A DNA stretch of 64,000 nucleotides from Chryseolinea lacunae (GTDB taxonomy: Bacteria; Bacteroidota; Bacteroidia; Cytophagales; Cyclobacteriaceae). A model generated the notes under the pieces. It saw only the letters and a list, made by a program, of their open reading frames with translations. It did no database searches and was not told the origin of the DNA. How positions within the stretch are numbered: position 1 is the first letter of the stretch; each line of letters begins with the position of its first letter. The position numbers and the translations under genes were made by a program. Shown here in pieces: positions 23,456 to 35,985 of this stretch. The stretch lies in the NCBI RefSeq assembly GCF_016735595.1, contig NZ_JAERRB010000001.1, positions 496,001-560,000 on the forward strand, read 5' to 3'.

Positions 23456-25123
23456 TTAAGAACATATCTCGATACTTCTTTCAGTTCGTTCATGTTTAGC
23501 CTCCATTACCTTAGACTGTCGTCTAATAAAATATGCAAAACTAAGAATCGCGGATTTAGTCAAAATCATAAGCAATTTAGTCTTGGCTATCAATTCCTCT
23601 CTAGAAATACTCACATCGCTGTAAAAATCATTCTTAGATTTGCGTTGGCGTTTTTCCCTTACAAAGAGCAACTTATGCTCCATGGCGTTTCTAATAGCCT
23701 TAAATGACTTTAATGCCGAATAGTCCGTTCTATCGAGGTCTCGTGCTAAACTGTAGAGACTAATTAAATACATATTCCCACGAAAATCACTCTCACTGAA
23801 TTCATACAGATCCCACATATTTAAAAAATACACTTTAGTGCTCTTATTTTGTTTCAAGACACTTTCAATATCAATTTCCATTCCCTCAAATATGCCGTAA
23901 CAGATTTGATCGAGAATACTATAACATATCTTAAATGCATTTTTTAGATGAGCATCTCTATACAAGCTCAACGCATCGGCTTTATTTTTTCTCCTATGGT
24001 TATCTGGCATTGCAACTGCTGTTTCGCTATGAAACAAGCTAAATCTTCCCAATGCAAAATCAGAAACAATAACCTTAAGTACTTCTTCAAATTTCTTCAC
24101 CCATTCAATATGGGTATGAACATGTGCTGTTCGAATTTCCAAGGAATCACCGATTCCCCTCCGACATGTGCAGAAAAAGGAGTGTTCGTTAACAAACAAT
24201 TCATTATCCCGACAGTAGACTAAATACTTATTCTTAACACCCTTCTCATTGGCAATGTTTTTCTGATGTTTTCGCAACACCTCTACCGATAGCTTAGCAA
24301 ACGCAATGTCATTCAAACATCTGTCCAGAATGGGGGCAAGGTGTGCCTTTTGTCCTCGGACTGCCTTCGGATTATCTATTGCATTTCTACAACAATCAAT
24401 AATTTTCAATAGTAGTTGACCATTATAATTCAAGCAACTTTTATCTTTCAAGGCATCAAGAGTCATCGCCACCAAATAATCGTAATTGGGGTCCGCACTA
24501 CTACTCAACTTAAGAAGTCTTAAGTAAAACAAAGGTTCAAACCACCTAGAAAGATGCATAAAGCACGCAGACAGCAGAACCAAGCAATAATTAAAGTCAC
24601 CCTCACTGAGCTTGTTCTTGCGCTCGACAGCTTGCGCATATACCTTAAGCAAATGAAACTTTGCCTTTCTTATCATTTCGAAATTCTCTACAGAAAACCA
24701 TCCATCATTTTCTTCGTTTTTTAGACCATAGTATTTCAAAAAAACTTCAGCATAAACCAACGATGCTCGCAGAGGTTCCTTATTGAAAAGTTTTACCTTT
24801 AATTTAGGGTCATGAAAATTAGAAATGATATTATCGAATGTATCTTTGCTTTTGAAGGTTTCTGCGTAATGACTTAATGTTAAAAAGAATTCCAAATGCA
24901 TATACAAGCGAAAACGCTCGTCTTTAACATAGTGAAAACTTGAAAGCATAAAATTATTTATTACAAGCTTTACATCGTCTCTTTTCACATTTTCATGACT
25001 AATCATGGTTCGAATCAATCTTACATGAAAGTCAAACCGCTCTTTCAAATTGACCATATTGAAGAATTTCTCGTCTATCACAAATAGACCTTCAAAATCC
25101 TTTGGATCGTTATCTTTATTCAT
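23456..25123 (-). CDS. LA2681-like HEPN domain protein
   Basis: A 555-residue cytoplasmic protein, AT-rich relative to flanking genes. The N-terminal about 300 residues are helical, TPR-like in spacing (YLRLLKLSSSADPNYDYLVAMTLDAL), and the C-terminal part matches my recollection of the LA2681-like HEPN family: AFKICYSILDQICYGIF, LYSLARDLD, then SFKAIRNAMEHKLLFV. RNAMEH (Arg478, His483) is the Rx4H catalytic motif of HEPN RNases. Proteins of this class occur in defence-associated islands as predicted RNA-cutting effectors. First gene of a two-gene operon with a smaller HEPN-like protein. Family call moderately sure; biological role inferred. Confidence 0.75.
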   Translation of the reverse strand: MNKDNDPKDFEGLFVIDEKFFNMVNLKERFDFHVRLIRTMISHENVKRDDVKLVINNFMLSSFHYVKDERFRLYMHLEFFLTLSHYAETFKSKDTFDNIISNFHDPKLKVKLFNKEPLRASLVYAEVFLKYYGLKNEENDGWFSVENFEMIRKAKFHLLKVYAQAVERKNKLSEGDFNYCLVLLSACFMHLSRWFEPLFYLRLLKLSSSADPNYDYLVAMTLDALKDKSCLNYNGQLLLKIIDCCRNAIDNPKAVRGQKAHLAPILDRCLNDIAFAKLSVEVLRKHQKNIANEKGVKNKYLVYCRDNELFVNEHSFFCTCRRGIGDSLEIRTAHVHTHIEWVKKFEEVLKVIVSDFALGRFSLFHSETAVAMPDNHRRKNKADALSLYRDAHLKNAFKICYSILDQICYGIFEGMEIDIESVLKQNKSTKVYFLNMWDLYEFSESDFRGNMYLISLYSLARDLDRTDYSALKSFKAIRNAMEHKLLFVREKRQRKSKNDFYSDVSISREELIAKTKLLMILTKSAILSFAYFIRRQSKVMEAKHERTERSIEICS

Positions 25124-26243: not shown

Positions 26244-26459
26244 ATGGCAAAAGCAAAACCACAATACAATCGGATAAAGGCCGTGTTAGCAGAACAAAAC
26301 ACAACGAGTCTATGGCTTGCCGATCATCTGGGCATGAACAGGTCTACCGTTTCGAAGTGGTGCACAAATGAAATGCAGCCCACCGTGAAAAGCCTTTTCA
26401 AAATTGCCAAAGCCCTGGACGTTGACGTTCGTGAACTTCTCGTTTCAAATAAAGGCTAA
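26244..26459 (+). CDS. XRE-family helix-turn-helix regulator
   Basis: A 71-residue single-domain regulator: YNRIKAVLAEQNTTSLWLADHLGMNRSTVSKWCTNEMQPTVKSLFKIAKAL, ending DVDVRELLVSNKG. The helix-turn-helix lies at about residues 22-42 with recognition helix NRSTVSKWC. This short XRE form is frequent in Bacteroidota. The codons of its last 20 residues are repeated 126 bases downstream in a degenerate copy. Divergent from the 115-residue basic protein. Likely a local repressor; targets unknown. Confidence 0.88.
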   Translation: MAKAKPQYNRIKAVLAEQNTTSLWLADHLGMNRSTVSKWCTNEMQPTVKSLFKIAKALDVDVRELLVSNKG

Positions 26460-26518
26460 TACGTCACCGTCACTCAACACAAAGTCTCCGAGGCGGAAGA
26501 CTTCACTACGACCCCAAA

Positions 26519-26601
26519 CCTTTTCAAAATAGCCAAAGCCCCGAACGTTGACGTTCGCGAACTTCTCGTTTCAAATAAAGGCTAAAACGTCACCATCACT
26601 C
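26519..26601 (+). pseudogene. Decayed partial duplicate of the XRE gene 3' end
   Basis: Bases 26393-26475 (XRE C-terminus and first 16 bases past it) recur at 26519-26601 with roughly seven mismatches, an exact offset of 126 bases. The copy still encodes LFKIAKAPNVDVRELLVSNKG and stop, but has no intact helix-turn-helix in front. The sequence before it (about 26480-26518) shows weak similarity to the corresponding part of the gene, suggesting tandem duplication followed by decay. Confidence 0.7.
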
Positions 26602-26618: not shown

Positions 26619-26850
26619 CAACACCGCCAAATCGCCGGGTTCCACCCGGCGATTTAAAAACGCACCCTCACGCCATTCGTGCCACAGCACAAACCACCTC
26701 GATCTGCAAACTACGTTGGCACCCGAAGTGCACCTTGCATCGAGCGATGCACCTGTGCACCATGAACCCGACTGCACCGAGCAAACGCGTGCGTGGTGCA
26801 CTGAAATTCATAACATCTGCAATCGCCGGGTGGAACCCGGCGATTTGCGA
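26619..26850. repeat. Paired-hairpin repeat element, copy A (full)
   Basis: Begins AACACCGCCAAATCGCCGGG, whose CGCCGGGT..ACCCGGCG palindrome forms a hairpin at 26629-26655, and ends with a second hairpin AATCGCCGGGT/ACCCGGCGATT at 26821-26846. Between them lies a conserved core including GTGCCACAGCACAAACCAC, GTTGGCACCCGAAGTGCAC and a GATGCACC..GTGC segment. Three further copies (27983, 30211, 35732) share ends and order and the same orientation. No protein is credible. Resembles a REPIN or MITE-like non-autonomous element. Confidence 0.85.
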
Positions 26851-27982: not shown

Positions 27983-28022
27983 AGACACCGCCAAATCGCC
28001 GGGTTCCACCCGGCGATTTTAC
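27983..28022. repeat. Paired-hairpin repeat element, copy B (remnant)
   Basis: Only the left end, GACACCGCCAAATCGCCGGG with its CGCCGGGT..ACCCGGCG palindrome, is complete. About 60 bases upstream, 27883-27925 resembles the right flank of copy D (GGGTGATGnGATGTGCTTGG), so this may be two partial elements or a rearranged one. It lies between convergent genes, where the hairpin could also act as a terminator. Confidence 0.65.
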
Positions 28023-30210: not shown

Positions 30211-30415
30211 AACACCGCCAAATCGCCGCTTGACGTCTTTGCTGCCACAGCACAGACCACTTCGATCTGCAAATTACATTGGCACCCGACGTGCACGTTG
30301 CATCGGATGATGCGACGGTGCGCCATGAACGTGAGTGCGTCGGGGAAATGCGTGCGTAGCGCAACTAATTTAGGCGTGCATTTTTAATCGCCGGGTAGAA
30401 CTCGGCGATTTTACG
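30211..30415. repeat. Paired-hairpin repeat element, copy C (left hairpin damaged)
   Basis: Starts AACACCGCCAAATCGCCGC, where the left palindrome is cut short, keeps the core (GCCACAGCACAGACCAC, TTGGCACCCGACGTGCACGT) and ends with AATCGCCGGGTAGAACTCGGCGATT at 30386-30410, in which one arm has a compensated mismatch. It lies in the 599-bp gap 29979-30577 between the lipoprotein gene and the bacteriocin-like gene. The rest of the gap is AT-rich and likely promoter sequence. Confidence 0.8.
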
Positions 30416-30577: not shown

Positions 30578-30832
30578 ATGAAAAGACTAAGTGATCAAAC
30601 GATGAAAGCCGTTAATGGCGGCGGAAATTGCTCCGGGTCATACAATGCATGCATTGTTGGAGCCGCAGTTACAGGAGCCGCCGTTGCTGCATTGACAGCA
30701 GGATGGGGAGCATATTTCGGTGTAGCTATCGCTGCTTCCGGAATGGAGTATTGTAGACAACAAGCCATTGGCTGCTATCAGGACGCCTCCTACCAAGCGC
30801 CAACCCGGCAAATTTCTCCCGGCGACCTCTAA
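30578..30832 (+). CDS. Double-glycine leader bacteriocin-like peptide
   Basis: An 84-residue peptide with leader MKRLSDQTMKAVNGG. Aligned to cleavage after Gly15 it fits the double-glycine leader rule: Leu at -12, Ser at -11, Met at -7, Val at -4, Gly at -2 and -1. The mature part (69 residues) has Cys18 and Cys25, then a Gly/Ala-rich hydrophobic helix (26-56, GAAVTGAAVAALTAGWG), then Cys59 and Cys66. Both pairs are Cx6C, predicting two small disulfide loops around a membrane-active helix. A C39 peptidase-ABC exporter lies downstream in the same direction. Antibacterial activity is an inference; a signalling peptide is possible. Confidence 0.82.
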   Translation: MKRLSDQTMKAVNGGGNCSGSYNACIVGAAVTGAAVAALTAGWGAYFGVAIAASGMEYCRQQAIGCYQDASYQAPTRQISPGDL

Positions 30833-30842
30833 ACTCAAAACT

Positions 30843-30876
30843 ATTCAGGGCGAAACAAATTTGTTTCGCCCTGAAT
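30843..30876 (+). terminator. Perfect 34-bp palindrome after the peptide gene
   Basis: Two 17-base arms, ATTCAGGGCGAAACAAA and its reverse complement, meet with no spacer at 30859/30860. Located 11 bases after the peptide stop and 15 before the next ATG, it likely forms an RNA stem that ends part of the transcripts or protects the peptide message, giving more peptide than exporter, as is common in bacteriocin operons. A T-run is lacking, so termination is not certain. Confidence 0.6.
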
Positions 30877-30890
30877 TAAACATTAAACTC

Positions 30891-31139
30891 ATGAATAGAA
30901 AACTAATAAATCAATTACTCACAGTATCCGTTATCGTAAGCGGATTTGTGTTGAGCCTTTTGAAGGTTTATGATCTTGTGTTCTACATTCCACTCATTGT
31001 CGTAGGATCTTACGTTGGATATCAAAATTTTAAAGAATCAAAATCAAAGGATCAAAACGTGACGGCGAAACACGTCACTATTAGCATCATCTTGATTATC
31101 ATTCTTCTTATTATCTACATATCCATTGCACCAGAATAA
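30891..31139 (+). CDS. Small two-helix membrane protein in the bacteriocin-like locus
   Basis: An 82-residue protein from ATG 30891: MNRKLINQLLTVSVIVSGFVLSLLKVYDLVFYIPLIVVGSYVGYQNFKES (written here only in part as the N-terminal helices) and a C-terminal helix SIILIIILLIIYISI. Two to three membrane segments joined by a Lys-rich stretch. Its place right after the peptide gene and its size suggest an immunity protein, but no family is recognised. It overlaps the start of the next gene by 14 bases if that gene uses TTG 31126. Confidence 0.65.
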   Translation: MNRKLINQLLTVSVIVSGFVLSLLKVYDLVFYIPLIVVGSYVGYQNFKESKSKDQNVTAKHVTISIILIIILLIIYISIAPE

Positions 31140-31779
31140 AACAAAGTCTTTGATACGCGGGGTACTAATCTACTCATTGCTCTGTGCGATACAGCTACTC
31201 TTGATCCATTTAATAAACACCACGGTGTTTACGGACAATTTGCTAGCTGAACCCTTTGCACAAAACTTCTCAGCGGAAGAAGTTCGTTTAATTATGTCAA
31301 ACTCAAAAGTCTGGCGCTGGCTTGGATACTCAATCTTTCCAATCCTAATCTTATTAAAAGTCTCTACCATAGCGTATTCATTAAGCCTTGGCCATATGTA
31401 CCACTTCAATCGCTTGGAGTATCGAAGAATATTCTCAATAGTCCTCAATTCAGAATTCATATTTATTATGCCCTTGTTCCTAAAATTATTTTGGTTCAAT
31501 TTCATTTTAAAAGAATTCGATCATATCGACATTTTAACATTCAGTCCATTTTCAATGACCTTTTTCTTTAATATGCATACCATTGAACCCTGGCTGGCGT
31601 ACCCATTGCAAACAATTAACATATTTGAGCTACTCTATCTCATTTGCCTTTCTGTCGGAATAAAAAGAGAGTTTTGCATTAGTCTTTGCGATGCCTTCAA
31701 GATAGTTTTAGTTCCATATCTAACCGTACTTATTTTCTGGCTAACACTAACCATCTATTTCACAATTACCTTTCTCTAG
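31126..31779 (+). CDS. Multispanning membrane protein in the bacteriocin-like locus
   Basis: Up to 217 residues with about five membrane helices (GVLIYSLLCAIQLLLIHLI, FPILILLKVSTIAYSL, FIFIMPLFLKLFWFNFIL, INIFELLYLICLSVGI, VPYLTVLIFWLTLTIYF). No family is recognised; similar membrane proteins accompany peptide exporters in Bacteroidota as I recall. No ATG is available near the N-terminus: TTG at 31126 overlaps the preceding gene, TTG at 31150 is an alternative. It may be an accessory or immunity factor. AT-rich like the rest of the locus. Confidence 0.65.
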   Translation: MHQNKTKSLIRGVLIYSLLCAIQLLLIHLINTTVFTDNLLAEPFAQNFSAEEVRLIMSNSKVWRWLGYSIFPILILLKVSTIAYSLSLGHMYHFNRLEYRRIFSIVLNSEFIFIMPLFLKLFWFNFILKEFDHIDILTFSPFSMTFFFNMHTIEPWLAYPLQTINIFELLYLICLSVGIKREFCISLCDAFKIVLVPYLTVLIFWLTLTIYFTITFL

Positions 31780-31856
31780 TAGCTAAATGGCAAAGAACTT
31801 ACAACTTTGAAAAAAGTTACCTACAACACATCGACGAATAGATCTTCTCACCATCT

Positions 31857-33977
31857 ATGAAGAACTTTACTTCGCACTTCTTTCTAAGAAAAATCAAACG
31901 AGCTCATGTCTACCAAAATGACTCGAAAGATTGCGGCCCTGCTTGTCTTCTGGCCCTAATAAGGTTTTACGGGGGAAACTCAAATCTGGAGTCCATTAGA
32001 ACATTATGCAGAAACACTGACAATGGAACTTCCATGCTAGGAATGAAGGTTGCAGCCATCGCATTGGGGATGACTGCCGAGGGATTTGAAGCAGACGCCC
32101 AGTCAATTGAATCTATAGAAAAGCAATTTATCCTCCATATCATCTCTCAAGGCTTTGATCACTACGTTGTGTGCTATGGTAATCTCCATGGAAAATATAT
32201 AATAAGCGACCCCAAAGATGGCATTAGATTCTGGAGCAAGAACGAACTCGCCGAAAAATGGAAATCTGGATATTGCTTAATCATCGAAAAAAGTAAAGGT
32301 TTTATTCAAAACAAGGCAGACTACCGCAGAAAAAAAGCATGGATTTGGGTGTTAATTCAGGACAACGTATCTATCCTACTAAGCTGCACCATTCTTGGGT
32401 TGGTGATTTCGGCTTTAAGCATTTTAATGTCCACTTTCTCCCAGCAATTGGTAGACGTTATTATTCCATCTGGCAAATTGCGAGTGGCTACCATGTCGGT
32501 CTGTCTAGTTTCACTCCTACTTATTATGAAGGCCGCGTTTCAATACATCCGACAGACATTTCTTATTAGACAAAACCTAGATCTCGAAAAAAAGCTTAAT
32601 TCCTTTTTTTTCAAAAAATTCCTCCATTTACCAAAGTCCTTCTTTGATCGAAGAAAAACTGGGGACTTGATTGCAAGAATCAATGACGTAGGCATTATCA
32701 AAAACACGTTTATTTTATTGTTCGGAAATCTGCTAATAGACACTCTTGTTGTTCTTTCGTCCATTGTCCTTATCATCTATTACAACACCTTTATAGGAAC
32801 GATATGCGCAACAGTCATTCCCGTCTATTTCATAATAATAAAGAATGCAAACAGGCATTTAATCACGACACAAGAGAGTCTAATGTCCTCACGCGCCATC
32901 TCAGAAAGCAACTACATAAACACAATTCAAGGAATTGCATCAATAAAATCATTCAACAAACAACAATTATTCGAAGACACAAACACTTCCTTATTTGGCC
33001 AATACCAGAAGAATGTTTTCTCATACCTAATGCTCCAAAATAAGCTATCATTGACAATTGGAATTACTACTATTTTTATAACAGCAATAGTGCTAACGCT
33101 TACAATTCAGAGCATCTTCTCAAAAGAAATGAAGATCGGAGAGATGACAGCGGTAATCGGGTCCCTTTCCTCTTTATTGAGTTCAGTGGCAAACCTGGCA
33201 CTGCTAAGTATTCCTATTAATGAGGCCAGAATTGCTTTCGACAGAATCTACGAATATGCACACATCAGTCCAGAGCAACAACTTTACCCCTATGTACAGA
33301 TCACCGACGAAATTGTTTTCAAAAAACTAACCGTCTCCAACATCTCAATTGGATTTGAAGAACAAAAAAACATTCTACACGACATCACCTTTGAGATTAA
33401 ACGAGGAGAACTAATTTCCATTATCGGGCAAAGTGGAACCGGCAAGAGTCTAATTTCTCAGATTCTTTTGAAATTTTACACTCCATCATCAGGCAGAATG
33501 ATACTTAACGATTCCGTCCCAATCGAAAACCTAAATATATGTCGCTGGCGGGAGCTCATTGCTGTGGTCCCTCAGTATGTTCACATTTTCGAAGGAAGCC
33601 TGTTATACAATATTTGCTTAAGTCATGATAAGGCTGATATCGACAAGGCATTAGACATCTTACTTAACCTGGGATTTCATGACTATTTTATCCCTTTCGT
33701 CAATGGGTATCAAACGCAACTTGGAGAGGGTGGGATTTCACCCTCCGGGGGGCAAAGACAAATGATCGGCCTAGCCAGGGCCTTATGTTTTAACCCCAGC
33801 CTGATTGTATTAGACGAGACAACAGCTCATCTTGATTCTGAAACAGAAAAGTTCGTATTCAAAATCCTTGAAAAACTTAGGCATCGGCTAGCTGTAATAT
33901 TTATAACACATCGTGGCCATAACTTAAAAACCGACAAAATTTTCAAGCTTCAGGCCGGCATTCTAATCCGTTTGTAG
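31857..33977 (+). CDS. C39 peptidase-containing ABC transporter (peptide processing and export)
   Basis: A 706-residue PCAT-type exporter. The N-terminal C39 protease has its catalytic Cys26 in DSKDCGPACLLAL, the His in FDHYVVCYG (about 102) and the Asp in ISDPKDG (about 118). A six-helix exporter domain follows (about 165-450), then a complete ATPase: GQSGTGKS (about 524), SPSGGQRQMIGLARAL signature (about 630), VLDETTAHLD Walker B (about 651) and an ITH switch His. It should cleave the double-glycine leader of the upstream peptide and carry it across the inner membrane. No HlyD or TolC gene is adjacent; outer-membrane passage must use another component. Confidence 0.93.
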   Translation: MKNFTSHFFLRKIKRAHVYQNDSKDCGPACLLALIRFYGGNSNLESIRTLCRNTDNGTSMLGMKVAAIALGMTAEGFEADAQSIESIEKQFILHIISQGFDHYVVCYGNLHGKYIISDPKDGIRFWSKNELAEKWKSGYCLIIEKSKGFIQNKADYRRKKAWIWVLIQDNVSILLSCTILGLVISALSILMSTFSQQLVDVIIPSGKLRVATMSVCLVSLLLIMKAAFQYIRQTFLIRQNLDLEKKLNSFFFKKFLHLPKSFFDRRKTGDLIARINDVGIIKNTFILLFGNLLIDTLVVLSSIVLIIYYNTFIGTICATVIPVYFIIIKNANRHLITTQESLMSSRAISESNYINTIQGIASIKSFNKQQLFEDTNTSLFGQYQKNVFSYLMLQNKLSLTIGITTIFITAIVLTLTIQSIFSKEMKIGEMTAVIGSLSSLLSSVANLALLSIPINEARIAFDRIYEYAHISPEQQLYPYVQITDEIVFKKLTVSNISIGFEEQKNILHDITFEIKRGELISIIGQSGTGKSLISQILLKFYTPSSGRMILNDSVPIENLNICRWRELIAVVPQYVHIFEGSLLYNICLSHDKADIDKALDILLNLGFHDYFIPFVNGYQTQLGEGGISPSGGQRQMIGLARALCFNPSLIVLDETTAHLDSETEKFVFKILEKLRHRLAVIFITHRGHNLKTDKIFKLQAGILIRL

Positions 33978-34149: not shown

Positions 34150-34863
34150 CTAGAGGCGCACCGATTTCACCAGGTCGAATTCGCGGCTTGATCCATAGCG
34201 GCTTTTCACGTAGCCTTTGAGGCGTTGCACGAAGATGCGTTGTTGAACATAGAGATCGTGGCGTTGTTTGAAAACGGCCGAGCGGGCACCGTAGGCGTCC
34301 ATCACATCGTTGTTTGCTTTTTGGGCGTCGGCCACGGCTTTGTCGAGGTCGGCAAATTTGAAGTCGGGCATGTTGGTTTCCCAGTCGGGAAATGTTTTGA
34401 TGGCCTCCACAATGTTGCGATACTGGCCCAGCATGGCACCATAGCCGCTGTCTGAAATGGTGACGCGCTTTTCTTCGGTGTTGGTGGTGCTGGCGGGGTC
34501 GGCCGGTTTGGACACTACGCGGATCACACGCAGCCGCCGCGCCAGGTCGCGCATCATGTTGTGCGGATGAGAATTGCGCCCGTAGGCGGCCACCACGGCA
34601 TTGCTGATTCTAGTAACCTTCATGAGCACCGATTCGCTGTCGGTGCGGAACATGGCCGCGCGAACGGCCACCGCCTTGCGATAGGCCTGCTCTTTGGCCA
34701 ACGCTTCATTGTTAACAATAGTGACCTTATCGAGCAGTTCCTTGAACTTGTCGAGGGCAAACCCCGCGGGTGGATTGAACCCGCTGAAGCCCAACAAAAG
34801 TGTGAGAACATCGATTGCTTTTTGCAGCCTGGCTGCGAAAGACATGGAAGAACTTGCATTCAT
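34150..34863 (-). CDS. Uncharacterised helical protein (about 237 residues)
   Basis: From ATG 34863: MNASSSMSFAARLQKAIDVL, then a mainly helical protein with AYRKAVAVRAAMFRTDSESVLMKVTRI, GRNSHPHNMMRDLARRLRV, SGYGAMLGQYRNIVEAI and AYGARSAVFKQRHDLYVQQRIFVQRLKGYVKSRYG. No signal peptide and no recognised domain; I recall similar hypothetical proteins in Bacteroidota. The frame opens 20 codons earlier (34923) but that stretch does not look coding. GC-rich codon use, unlike the neighbouring exporter locus, indicating the edge of the AT-rich insert near 34.1 kb. Confidence 0.6.
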   Translation of the reverse strand: MNASSSMSFAARLQKAIDVLTLLLGFSGFNPPAGFALDKFKELLDKVTIVNNEALAKEQAYRKAVAVRAAMFRTDSESVLMKVTRISNAVVAAYGRNSHPHNMMRDLARRLRVIRVVSKPADPASTTNTEEKRVTISDSGYGAMLGQYRNIVEAIKTFPDWETNMPDFKFADLDKAVADAQKANNDVMDAYGARSAVFKQRHDLYVQQRIFVQRLKGYVKSRYGSSREFDLVKSVRL

Positions 34864-35142
34864 AAATACTGTTTTTGAAAAATGTTTTTTAGAAAATCTG
34901 AACTCGCGTTCCGTGCACGGCACGCTTGCCAGCCCCCTTTACAACCGGCGCGCCAACTTGCAGCACGTCAAAAAAAACGCGTCGAAATCTGTACATGCAT
35001 TTTTCAACATTCGGCCACCGAAATGCCGATTCCAGAAAACTGATCGAAGAAATTCTTACACGAAAAAAAGTTTTTCAACACCCCCTCACCCCGCTCCAAC
35101 CTCCCCGGCTCCGGGGGTGCAAGGCGTGGTTGTGAAGACCAT

Positions 35143-35238: not shown

Positions 35239-35711
35239 TTGGGCACTAGTGTGCCGGTGTTGAGGACTACCGCAGTAATATTGAGCCTTACCGTGCCAGT
35301 GCACAGGCCATATACATCAGTGCTGAGGCTTACCGTGGTAGTATTGAGGCCTTACACATCAGTGCAAACGTCTGGTGTGTGTTGCATGAGCACTACCGTG
35401 ACAGTGCAAACGTCTGGTGTGTGCTGCATGAGCACTACCGTGACAGTGCAAACGTCTGGTGTGTGTTGCATGAGCACTACCGTGACAGTGTAAACGTCTG
35501 GTGTGTGCTGCATGGGCACTACCGTGACAGTGCAAACGTCTGGTGTGTGTTGCATGAGCACTACCGTGACAGTGTAAACGTCTGGTGTGTGCTGCATGAG
35601 CACTACCGTGACAGTGTAAACGTCTGGTGTGTGCTGCATGAGCACTACCGTGACAGTGCAAACGTCTGGTGCGTAAAGTTTGGGACCTGCCATAAGCGTG
35701 CAAACATCTGA
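35239..35711. repeat. 21-bp minisatellite with 42-bp higher-order repeat
   Basis: From 35239 the sequence runs in 21-base units: five diverged units start TTGGGCACT, TTGAGGACT, TTGAGCCTT, CACAGGCCA, CTGAGGCTT, then TTGAGGCCT (35344). From 35365 two half-units, CAAACGTCTGGTGTGTG.. and ATGAGCACTACCGTGACAG.., alternate as a 42-bp repeat starting at 35365, 35407, 35449, 35491, 35533, 35575, 35617 and 35659, with few differences. Register decays after 35680. Because 42 is a multiple of 3 and no stops occur, long frames are open on both strands; they are not credible genes. Confidence 0.92.
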
Positions 35712-35731
35712 TTTGCGGAAGTGTTGATCAG

Positions 35732-35985
35732 AACACCGCCAAATCACCGGGATCCCTCCCGGCGATTTATAAACGTTGCCCCACGCTTTTGGTGCCACAG
35801 CACAAAACACCTCGATCCACAAAATTACGTTGGCACCCGAAGTGCACGTTGCATCGGGTGATGCACCGGTGCGCCATGAACTTGCGTGCGTCGGGGAAAT
35901 GCGTGCGTGGCGCAATTGAAATATGGTGGTGGTTTCAATCGCCGGGTGGAACCCGGCGATTGGCGGGGTGATGAGATGTGCTTGG
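35732..35985. repeat. Paired-hairpin repeat element, copy D (full, with right flank)
   Basis: Left end AACACCGCCAAATCACCGGG with its palindrome, the core (GTGCCACAGCACAAAACAC, GTTGGCACCCGAAGTGCAC, CGGGTGATGCACCGGTGC) and right hairpin AATCGCCGGGTGGAACCCGG at 35937-35961, then GGGTGATGAGATGTGCTTGG, which also occurs beside copy B. Same orientation as the other copies. It directly follows the minisatellite. The stretch from here to 36310 holds no firm gene. Confidence 0.85.

Follow-up and report, generated by a model that had tools for sequence, protein, structure and literature searches.

What does the four-gene locus at positions 30578 to 33977 of this window, a 64,000-nucleotide stretch of the Chryseolinea lacunae genome, make and export? 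The locus encodes an 84-residue precursor peptide, two membrane proteins (open reading frames ORF2 and ORF3) and an exporter that joins a C39 peptidase to an ATP-binding cassette (ABC) transporter. Our answer is that it is probably a peptide-export operon of the bacteroidetocin type with a new core peptide, and probably an antibacterial one. A weapon against related bacteria would be the most likely role of the exported peptide. The features concerned are as follows.

30578..30832, + strand: precursor peptide gene, 84 amino acids (ORF list, leader profile and a weak Pfam Bacteriocin_IIc match below the cut-off).
30578..30622, + strand: 15-residue double-glycine leader, MKRLSDQTMKAVNGG (leader-profile ranking).
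30623..30829, + strand: mature peptide, 69 amino acids, with cysteines at 3, 10, 44 and 51 and predicted helices at 2-24 and 29-58 (AlphaFold2).
30843..30876, + strand: 15-bp hairpin in the gap between the peptide gene and ORF2 (-24.4 kcal/mol, z -9.1).
30891..31139, + strand: ORF2, membrane protein of 82 amino acids, candidate immunity protein (linkage of its homologues to C39-ABC loci).
31126..31779, + strand: ORF3, five-helix membrane protein of 217 amino acids with a TTG start (alignments, AlphaFold2, YknW_fam and Yip1 relatives).
31857..33977, + strand: C39 peptidase-ABC exporter (peptidase-containing ABC transporter, PCAT), 706 amino acids (three Pfam domains over cut-off).

According to Coyne et al. 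(2019, PMC6671954), bacteroidetocins (proposed class IIf) are encoded together with a five-transmembrane (five-TM) protein of unknown function, a thiol oxidoreductase, present in most of the published regions, and a double-glycine-peptidase ABC exporter; 19 peptides are listed, and a peptide counts as bacteroidetocin-like if it has a leader of 15-16 residues and at least two cysteines. The window locus has a leader of that length ending in two glycines, at least two cysteines, an adjacent five-helix protein and an adjacent C39-ABC exporter, and it lacks the adjacent thiol oxidoreductase.

A first-pass annotation of this DNA had described a peptide gene followed in the same direction by two genes for membrane proteins and one for a complete C39 peptidase-ABC exporter, and this description was confirmed, with a correction to the start of ORF3. 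All four genes lie on the + strand and all four reading frames are open. The exporter matched Peptidase_C39 (99 bits), ABC_membrane (97.8) and ABC_tran (80.6), all over the Pfam cut-offs, so that peptidase, transmembrane and nucleotide-binding domains stand in one chain as in a PCAT. The same annotation had found no modification enzyme and no HlyD or TolC; a Pfam scan of 18 proteins encoded at 22.8 to 40.2 kb of the window, several of which matched no family, likewise returned no glycosyltransferase, peptide-modifying enzyme, HlyD or TolC. Its double-glycine leader, with leucine at -12, methionine at -7, valine at -4 and glycines at -2 and -1, was also recovered: in a scan with a profile built on 102 leaders found in related loci it ranked first of the 4768 ATG, GTG or TTG starts in the window, though it is outlying in its family, as set out below.

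The arrangement of the locus was compared with that of related exporter loci. A total of 137 loci, the window included, were entered, 124 passed a rule combining an exporter profile with motifs, and 116 were distinct at 95% identity, 8 having been merged as copies (seven groups of near-identical exporters). The rule was too strict, since the 13 failures include five loci that do hold exporters (L093, L182 and L213-L215). The named loci derived from the exporter were the best 80 of 413 relatives, of which 79 are placed in Bacteroidota by name and one is labelled Alphaproteobacteria, the best being that of Runella zeae (43% identical); further loci from other genomes were added. Gene order was counted in the 95 distinct loci that extended 2 kb or more upstream of the exporter, the other 21 being set aside, and an ORF3 homologue or thioredoxin-like gene was scored if it lay on the exporter's strand and no more than 4 kb upstream. 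An ORF3 homologue was present in 93 of the 95 loci. Both genes were found in 87, invariably in the order ORF3, thioredoxin-like, exporter (87/87), while six loci had ORF3 only (the window, L085, L088, L089, L092 and L121) and two had the thioredoxin-like gene only. ORF3 is present by construction in 17 of the 94 non-window loci, which were chosen by similarity to it; among the 77 chosen by exporter similarity alone, 70 had both genes, 5 had ORF3 only and 2 had the thioredoxin-like gene only.

Peptides of the same kind accompany these exporters. A search for homologous peptides, proposed in the first-pass annotation, found none close to the window peptide. A leader rule, applied to the strand of the exporter at distances of up to about 6 kb, identified 105 distinct double-glycine peptides in 77 of the 116 loci. 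On the opposite strand that rule found 6, in a control that took whole loci with no distance limit and was not deduplicated. The leader pattern had been modelled on the first examples and missed unusual leaders (GN in L103, GS in L085 and L089). Exactly two cysteines were present in 94 of the 105 peptides, four in 7, and none or one in 4; the fraction of glycine and alanine between the outer cysteines reached at least 0.4 in 54, the window peptide included, and 24 of the 77 loci had two or more peptides. Cores varied strongly while leader and exporter stayed constant. In an alignment of 67 peptides, two near-invariant cysteines fell on the outer pair of the window peptide (Cys18 and Cys66 in precursor numbering), a result that is only indicative at a mean column identity of 17%. 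The annotation had made conservation of leader and cysteines the test of its reading: leader type and outer cysteines do recur in relatives, and the inner pair does not. The window precursor matched Pfam Bacteriocin_IIc (PF10439) with 19.9 bits and an expectation value (E) of 0.00073, under the gathering cut-off of 27.1; 15 of the 67 aligned peptides, this one included, matched the family at E<=0.01, and 5 of the 67, the window peptide not among them, matched the class II bacteriocin profile TIGR03949. Taken together, these counts suggest that the set of genes known from the bacteroidetocins of gut bacteria occurs widely in Bacteroidota, usually with peptides that have two cysteines, are often hydrophobic and do not resemble class IIa. 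Two loci, L085 (8501-8920) and L089 (9431-9935), carry pairs of four-cysteine peptides with KFWGW or KFFGW after GG or GS, between ORF3 and the exporter, and our guess is that these are closer to true bacteroidetocins. In L036 (genome G065) the exporter frame is split by one TAG and the neighbouring peptide genes are open.

The two membrane proteins, unrecognised in the first-pass annotation, both proved to have relatives: ORF3 belongs to the conserved five-helix family just counted, and ORF2 has homologues in three genomes. The homology of ORF3 extends well 5' of its first ATG (31294), and we therefore assigned the TTG at 31126 as its start, which overlaps ORF2 by 14 nucleotides. AlphaFold2 predicted five long helices with a predicted local distance difference test (pLDDT) of 92.6. 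Among 43 aligned ORF3 relatives, 15 matched NCBIfam YknW_fam and 4 matched Pfam Yip1; the window ORF3 itself matched neither at E<=0.01, and a fold search with it gave no match at E<=0.001. The wider family is common, with matches in 134 of 196 genomes of the host's taxonomic family (E<=0.01), and 13 of 16 ORF3 loci in other genomes, mostly top matches, hold a C39 exporter of the window type alongside. A paralogue 53% identical to ORF3 stands alone in the same genome at C1:399249-399860 (L034), some 97 kb ahead of the window, and its surroundings (16 kb) held no exporter of the window type and no double-glycine peptide.

ORF2 is much rarer. Of 389 other genomes in the order, 3 have homologues (L041, L103 and L223; E<=0.001), each in a C39-exporter locus whose two-cysteine peptides are rich in Gly and Ala, and across the 390 order genomes searched homologues occurred solely in such loci. 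In L223 the order is peptide, ORF2, ORF3, thioredoxin-like, exporter. This linkage, 3 of 3, argues that ORF2 is part of the system, and a candidate immunity protein is its likeliest role.

We then consider the peptide itself. Its mature part holds Cys3, Cys10, Cys44 and Cys51 as two Cx6C motifs with 33 residues between them. Gaps of 6 and 6 arise in 0.17% of random placements of four cysteines in 69 residues, by a post-hoc test, and none of the other 104 peptides has the double Cx6C, the six others with four cysteines having other spacings. Structure prediction, which the first-pass annotation had suggested, gave a two-helix hairpin at moderate pLDDT: the AlphaFold2 single-sequence model of the mature peptide has helices at 2-24 and 29-58 (pLDDT 73.4, predicted template modelling score 0.47). 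In this model the residue numbers Cys3 and Cys51 sum to 54, as do Cys10 and Cys44, and the turn positions 24 and 29 sum to 53; matching sums mean that both cysteine pairs face each other in the antiparallel hairpin, seven residues apart along each helix. The mature peptide is thus modelled as a Gly/Ala-rich helical hairpin with putative stacked Cys3-Cys51 and Cys10-Cys44 disulfides. Comparison of the peptide with PDB sequences gave nothing beyond chance (best E 0.31), and a literature search of titles and abstract openings, outside which many subscription papers lie, found no description of it or of a Cx6C hairpin member. Microcin E492 and AhlB appeared among the fold-search rows for the hairpin at E of about 6-10 and were discarded as not significant.

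Several points weigh against a bacteroidetocin-type toxin operon. The leader scored 13.9, below the lowest of the 102 family leaders (14.4), and ranked tenth in the same scan when the two glycines were left out, which makes it an outlying leader. No homologue of the peptide was found in 195 other family genomes, in viral contigs or in plasmids, and its mature charge is about -1, unlike that of the basic bacteroidetocins A and B. Comparison lends the inner cysteine pair no support, as this pair occurs in no other of the 105 peptides; the alignment-free peptide model is only moderately confident, the five models spanning pLDDT 45.9 to 73.4, and a fold search with the hairpin gave no match at E<=0.001, the best PDB matches being not significant. 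A thioredoxin-like gene is missing: the profile matched nothing in the 4 kb 5' of the exporter, and the interval from 31779 to 31857 contains no ORF. Proteins of the ORF3 type are also encoded apart from exporters, two of them in the genome of the window. Finally, the equation of ORF3 with the published five-TM protein is a putative one, drawn from its topology, its place in the operon and the accompanying genes.

Weighing these points, we still favour the bacteroidetocin-type operon, and propose the following course of events. From its domains and the leader, the C39-ABC exporter would bind the leader, cut after Gly15 and move the 69-residue peptide to the periplasm, with ORF3 helping to assemble or run the exporter by analogy with the bacteroidetocin five-TM protein. 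In the periplasm, model and register suggest that the peptide would adopt the Gly/Ala-rich helical hairpin closed by its two stacked disulfides. Because the operon is without the usual thioredoxin-like protein, these bonds would arise unaided or with the help of a gene product from another locus, for instance the lipoprotein-like relative on contig 23 described below. The peptide would then cross the outer membrane through a channel of another system, perhaps a MacAB-TolC-like pump of the kind linked in 5 of the 95 loci, and may kill or inhibit related bacteria at the envelope while ORF2 protects the producer. In the published system (PMC6671954), transposon hits in the genes abolished and deletions attenuated toxin production, the five-TM protein was needed for full production, the four genes suffice in Escherichia coli, and a sensitive strain gained no protection from either the five-TM protein or the oxidoreductase; the bacteroidetocin target is reported to be BamA (PMC8546649).

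The alternative that survives best, although we judge it unlikely, is that the exporter secretes a peptide pheromone, as with ComC or BlpC in Gram-positives, and not a toxin. Double-glycine peptides and PCATs do serve both signal and toxin roles in general (PMC7018657). The core here, however, is Gly/Ala-rich and hydrophobic with a cysteine frame, and no receptor kinase or regulator was seen among the ORFs of 30-34 kb. Moreover, the strong variation of cores behind a constant leader and exporter, with two or more peptides in 24 of the 77 loci, is easier to reconcile with toxins than with a signal whose receptor is fixed.

Could the locus instead be decaying or partly broken, with the oxidoreductase lost, the leader drifted and the peptide inactive? 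The missing thioredoxin-like gene, an absence seen in 6 of the 95 loci including the window, the leader score under the family minimum and the failure to find peptide homologues would all agree with decay, and yet the four frames are open, the C39 and ATPase domains score well over their cut-offs and the cysteines are symmetric. L088, L092 and L121 also do without the thioredoxin-like gene and still keep long exporter frames and peptides. We therefore regard decay as rather improbable. The genome does encode a relative of the thioredoxin-like family, in which CxxC and a proline are invariant in 11 aligned sequences: the gene at C23:456992 (E 1.2e-29) has an open frame with a lipoprotein-like start and adjoins a long gene read as mfd, and its surroundings (14 kb) held no peptide or exporter of the window type. 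Its product could act in trans on the peptide. VKOR, considered as an alternative oxidant, had no match in this genome. A second, distant C39-ABC exporter (24%) lies at C12:406943 (L051, 8935-11142) beside an ORF read as a carbamoyltransferase, and the leader pattern found no double-glycine peptide nearby. In the preferred reading, the window locus offers a natural test of the roles of the oxidoreductase and of the inner disulfide.

A glycocin, that is, a helical hairpin with nested disulfides that bears a sugar, is suggested by the two Cx6C motifs in a predicted hairpin. Glycocins show Cx6C spacing in a helical hairpin, with an interhelix stretch far shorter than the 33 residues of the window peptide. 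All four cysteines of the window peptide are taken by the frame, and neither thiol-disulfide isomerase genes in the cluster nor a thioredoxin-like pair in the operon were found. The genome has 29 Glycos_transf_2 matches, and the nearest on the contig (C1:206563 and C1:952399) lie more than 300 kb away; the peptide is accordingly not a glycocin, an identity we consider very improbable, though it may work like the glycocin frame. The first-pass annotation could not match the cysteine arrangement to any named class, and on this point it is revised: nested disulfides are the glycocin pattern (PMC12457901) and give the arrangement a precedent, even if the window is not a glycocin locus. A secreted peptide for biofilm or surface behaviour, for which double-glycine peptides of the cyanobacterium Synechococcus elongatus are a reported precedent (PMC4997328), is hardly credible, as the gene set matches a toxin operon (PMC6671954) and ORF2 resembles an accessory immunity-type protein.

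The related loci bear on how a peptide of this kind may cross the outer membrane. No HlyD adaptor was found within 4 kb of the window exporter with a profile built on five proteins of this genome, which may undercount adaptors; the nearest of 26 HlyD_3 matches genome-wide is at window position about 18255, roughly 12 kb upstream. In five of the 95 loci (L035, L105, L137, L159 and L210, not the window) a permease and an HlyD-type adaptor lie 3' of the exporter, and Pfam confirmed MacB_PCD/FtsX and HlyD in L035 and L137. Such linkage suggests, for these loci, a second export step through a MacAB-TolC-like pump, or else self-protection, and makes the five a testable answer to the crossing.

The surroundings of the operon bear on its origin and expression. 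The fraction of G+C at third codon positions is 0.38-0.44 in the four operon genes versus 0.54-0.69 in three flanking genes, so that the operon was likely acquired as a unit. Of five other genomes of the genus, one had a homologue of the gene at 34150-34923, and as the surrounding 19.9 kb did not keep the neighbour genes of the window, no empty site was seen. A sigma-70 scan gave 7 sites against a mean of 10.3 after shuffling, and thus no excess. The hairpin at 30843..30876 has no T run on the + strand and is terminator-like only on the - strand in a simple scan; it is possibly an attenuator or RNA-processing stem, and could limit read-through, giving an excess of the peptide.

Intergenic palindromic repeats of the AATCGCCGGGTGGAACCCGGCGATT type lie at 26629-26655, 26821-26847, 27993-28019, 30386-30410 and 35937-35961, one copy thus standing just 5' of the peptide gene. 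A stretch at 30794-30837, which is 64% like these palindromes, overlaps the 3' end of the peptide gene (encoded tail PTRQISPGDL); the tail may come from a degenerate copy, or the resemblance may be chance. A tandem array with a 42-bp period occupies 35276-35737. Upstream, 23459-25123 is AT-rich (GC 0.35-0.36 versus a background of 0.50) with an LA2681-like HEPN protein, and is possibly a second acquired segment of defence type; the end of a small helix-turn-helix gene is partly duplicated in direct orientation at 26390-26475 and 26516-26601 (92%).

Compared with known systems, the locus differs from class II microcins and their type I secretion in having no linked HlyD adaptor within 4 kb. With YknW, of the YknWXYZ system and the Yip1 superfamily (PMC4887032), ORF3 shares being a small multi-helix membrane protein that accompanies a peptide-handling ABC transporter; its partner, however, is a C39 exporter and not YknXYZ, and the window protein has no profile match at E<=0.01. 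Like sublancin, glycocin F and thermoglycocin, the peptide combines two Cx6C motifs in a predicted hairpin, nested pairing by register and a C39 exporter, but its locus has neither a nearby glycosyltransferase nor a thioredoxin pair, its interhelix stretch is much longer and its producer is Gram-negative. The two-cysteine peptides of related loci share with it the leader type, the exporter, ORF3 and often the Gly/Ala-rich core, and differ in cysteine number. The bacteroidetocins share the 15-residue double-glycine leader, a cysteine-containing core (here with four cysteines), the five-TM protein, the C39-ABC exporter, the lack of an adaptor in the four-gene operon and the Bacteroidota host. 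By their published description, they have 42-residue, basic, class-IIa-like cores, whereas that of the window peptide is Gly/Ala-rich with Cx6C-33-Cx6C and a charge of about -1; the window lacks their thiol oxidoreductase gene, has the extra ORF2, and places its peptide gene 5' of ORF3 instead of between the TM protein and the oxidoreductase. A joint reading, which we put forward tentatively, is that the window encodes an unglycosylated hairpin stapled by Cys3-Cys51 and Cys10-Cys44, in which the glycocin frame would have been reached independently in a Gram-negative and be oxidised without the dedicated thioredoxin-like protein of nearly all its relatives, and that it may be an extreme member of a class of hairpin toxins found across the phylum, clasped by cysteines and often rich in Gly and Ala, which a C39-ABC/five-helix machine exports and, in some hosts, a MacAB-like pump passes on.

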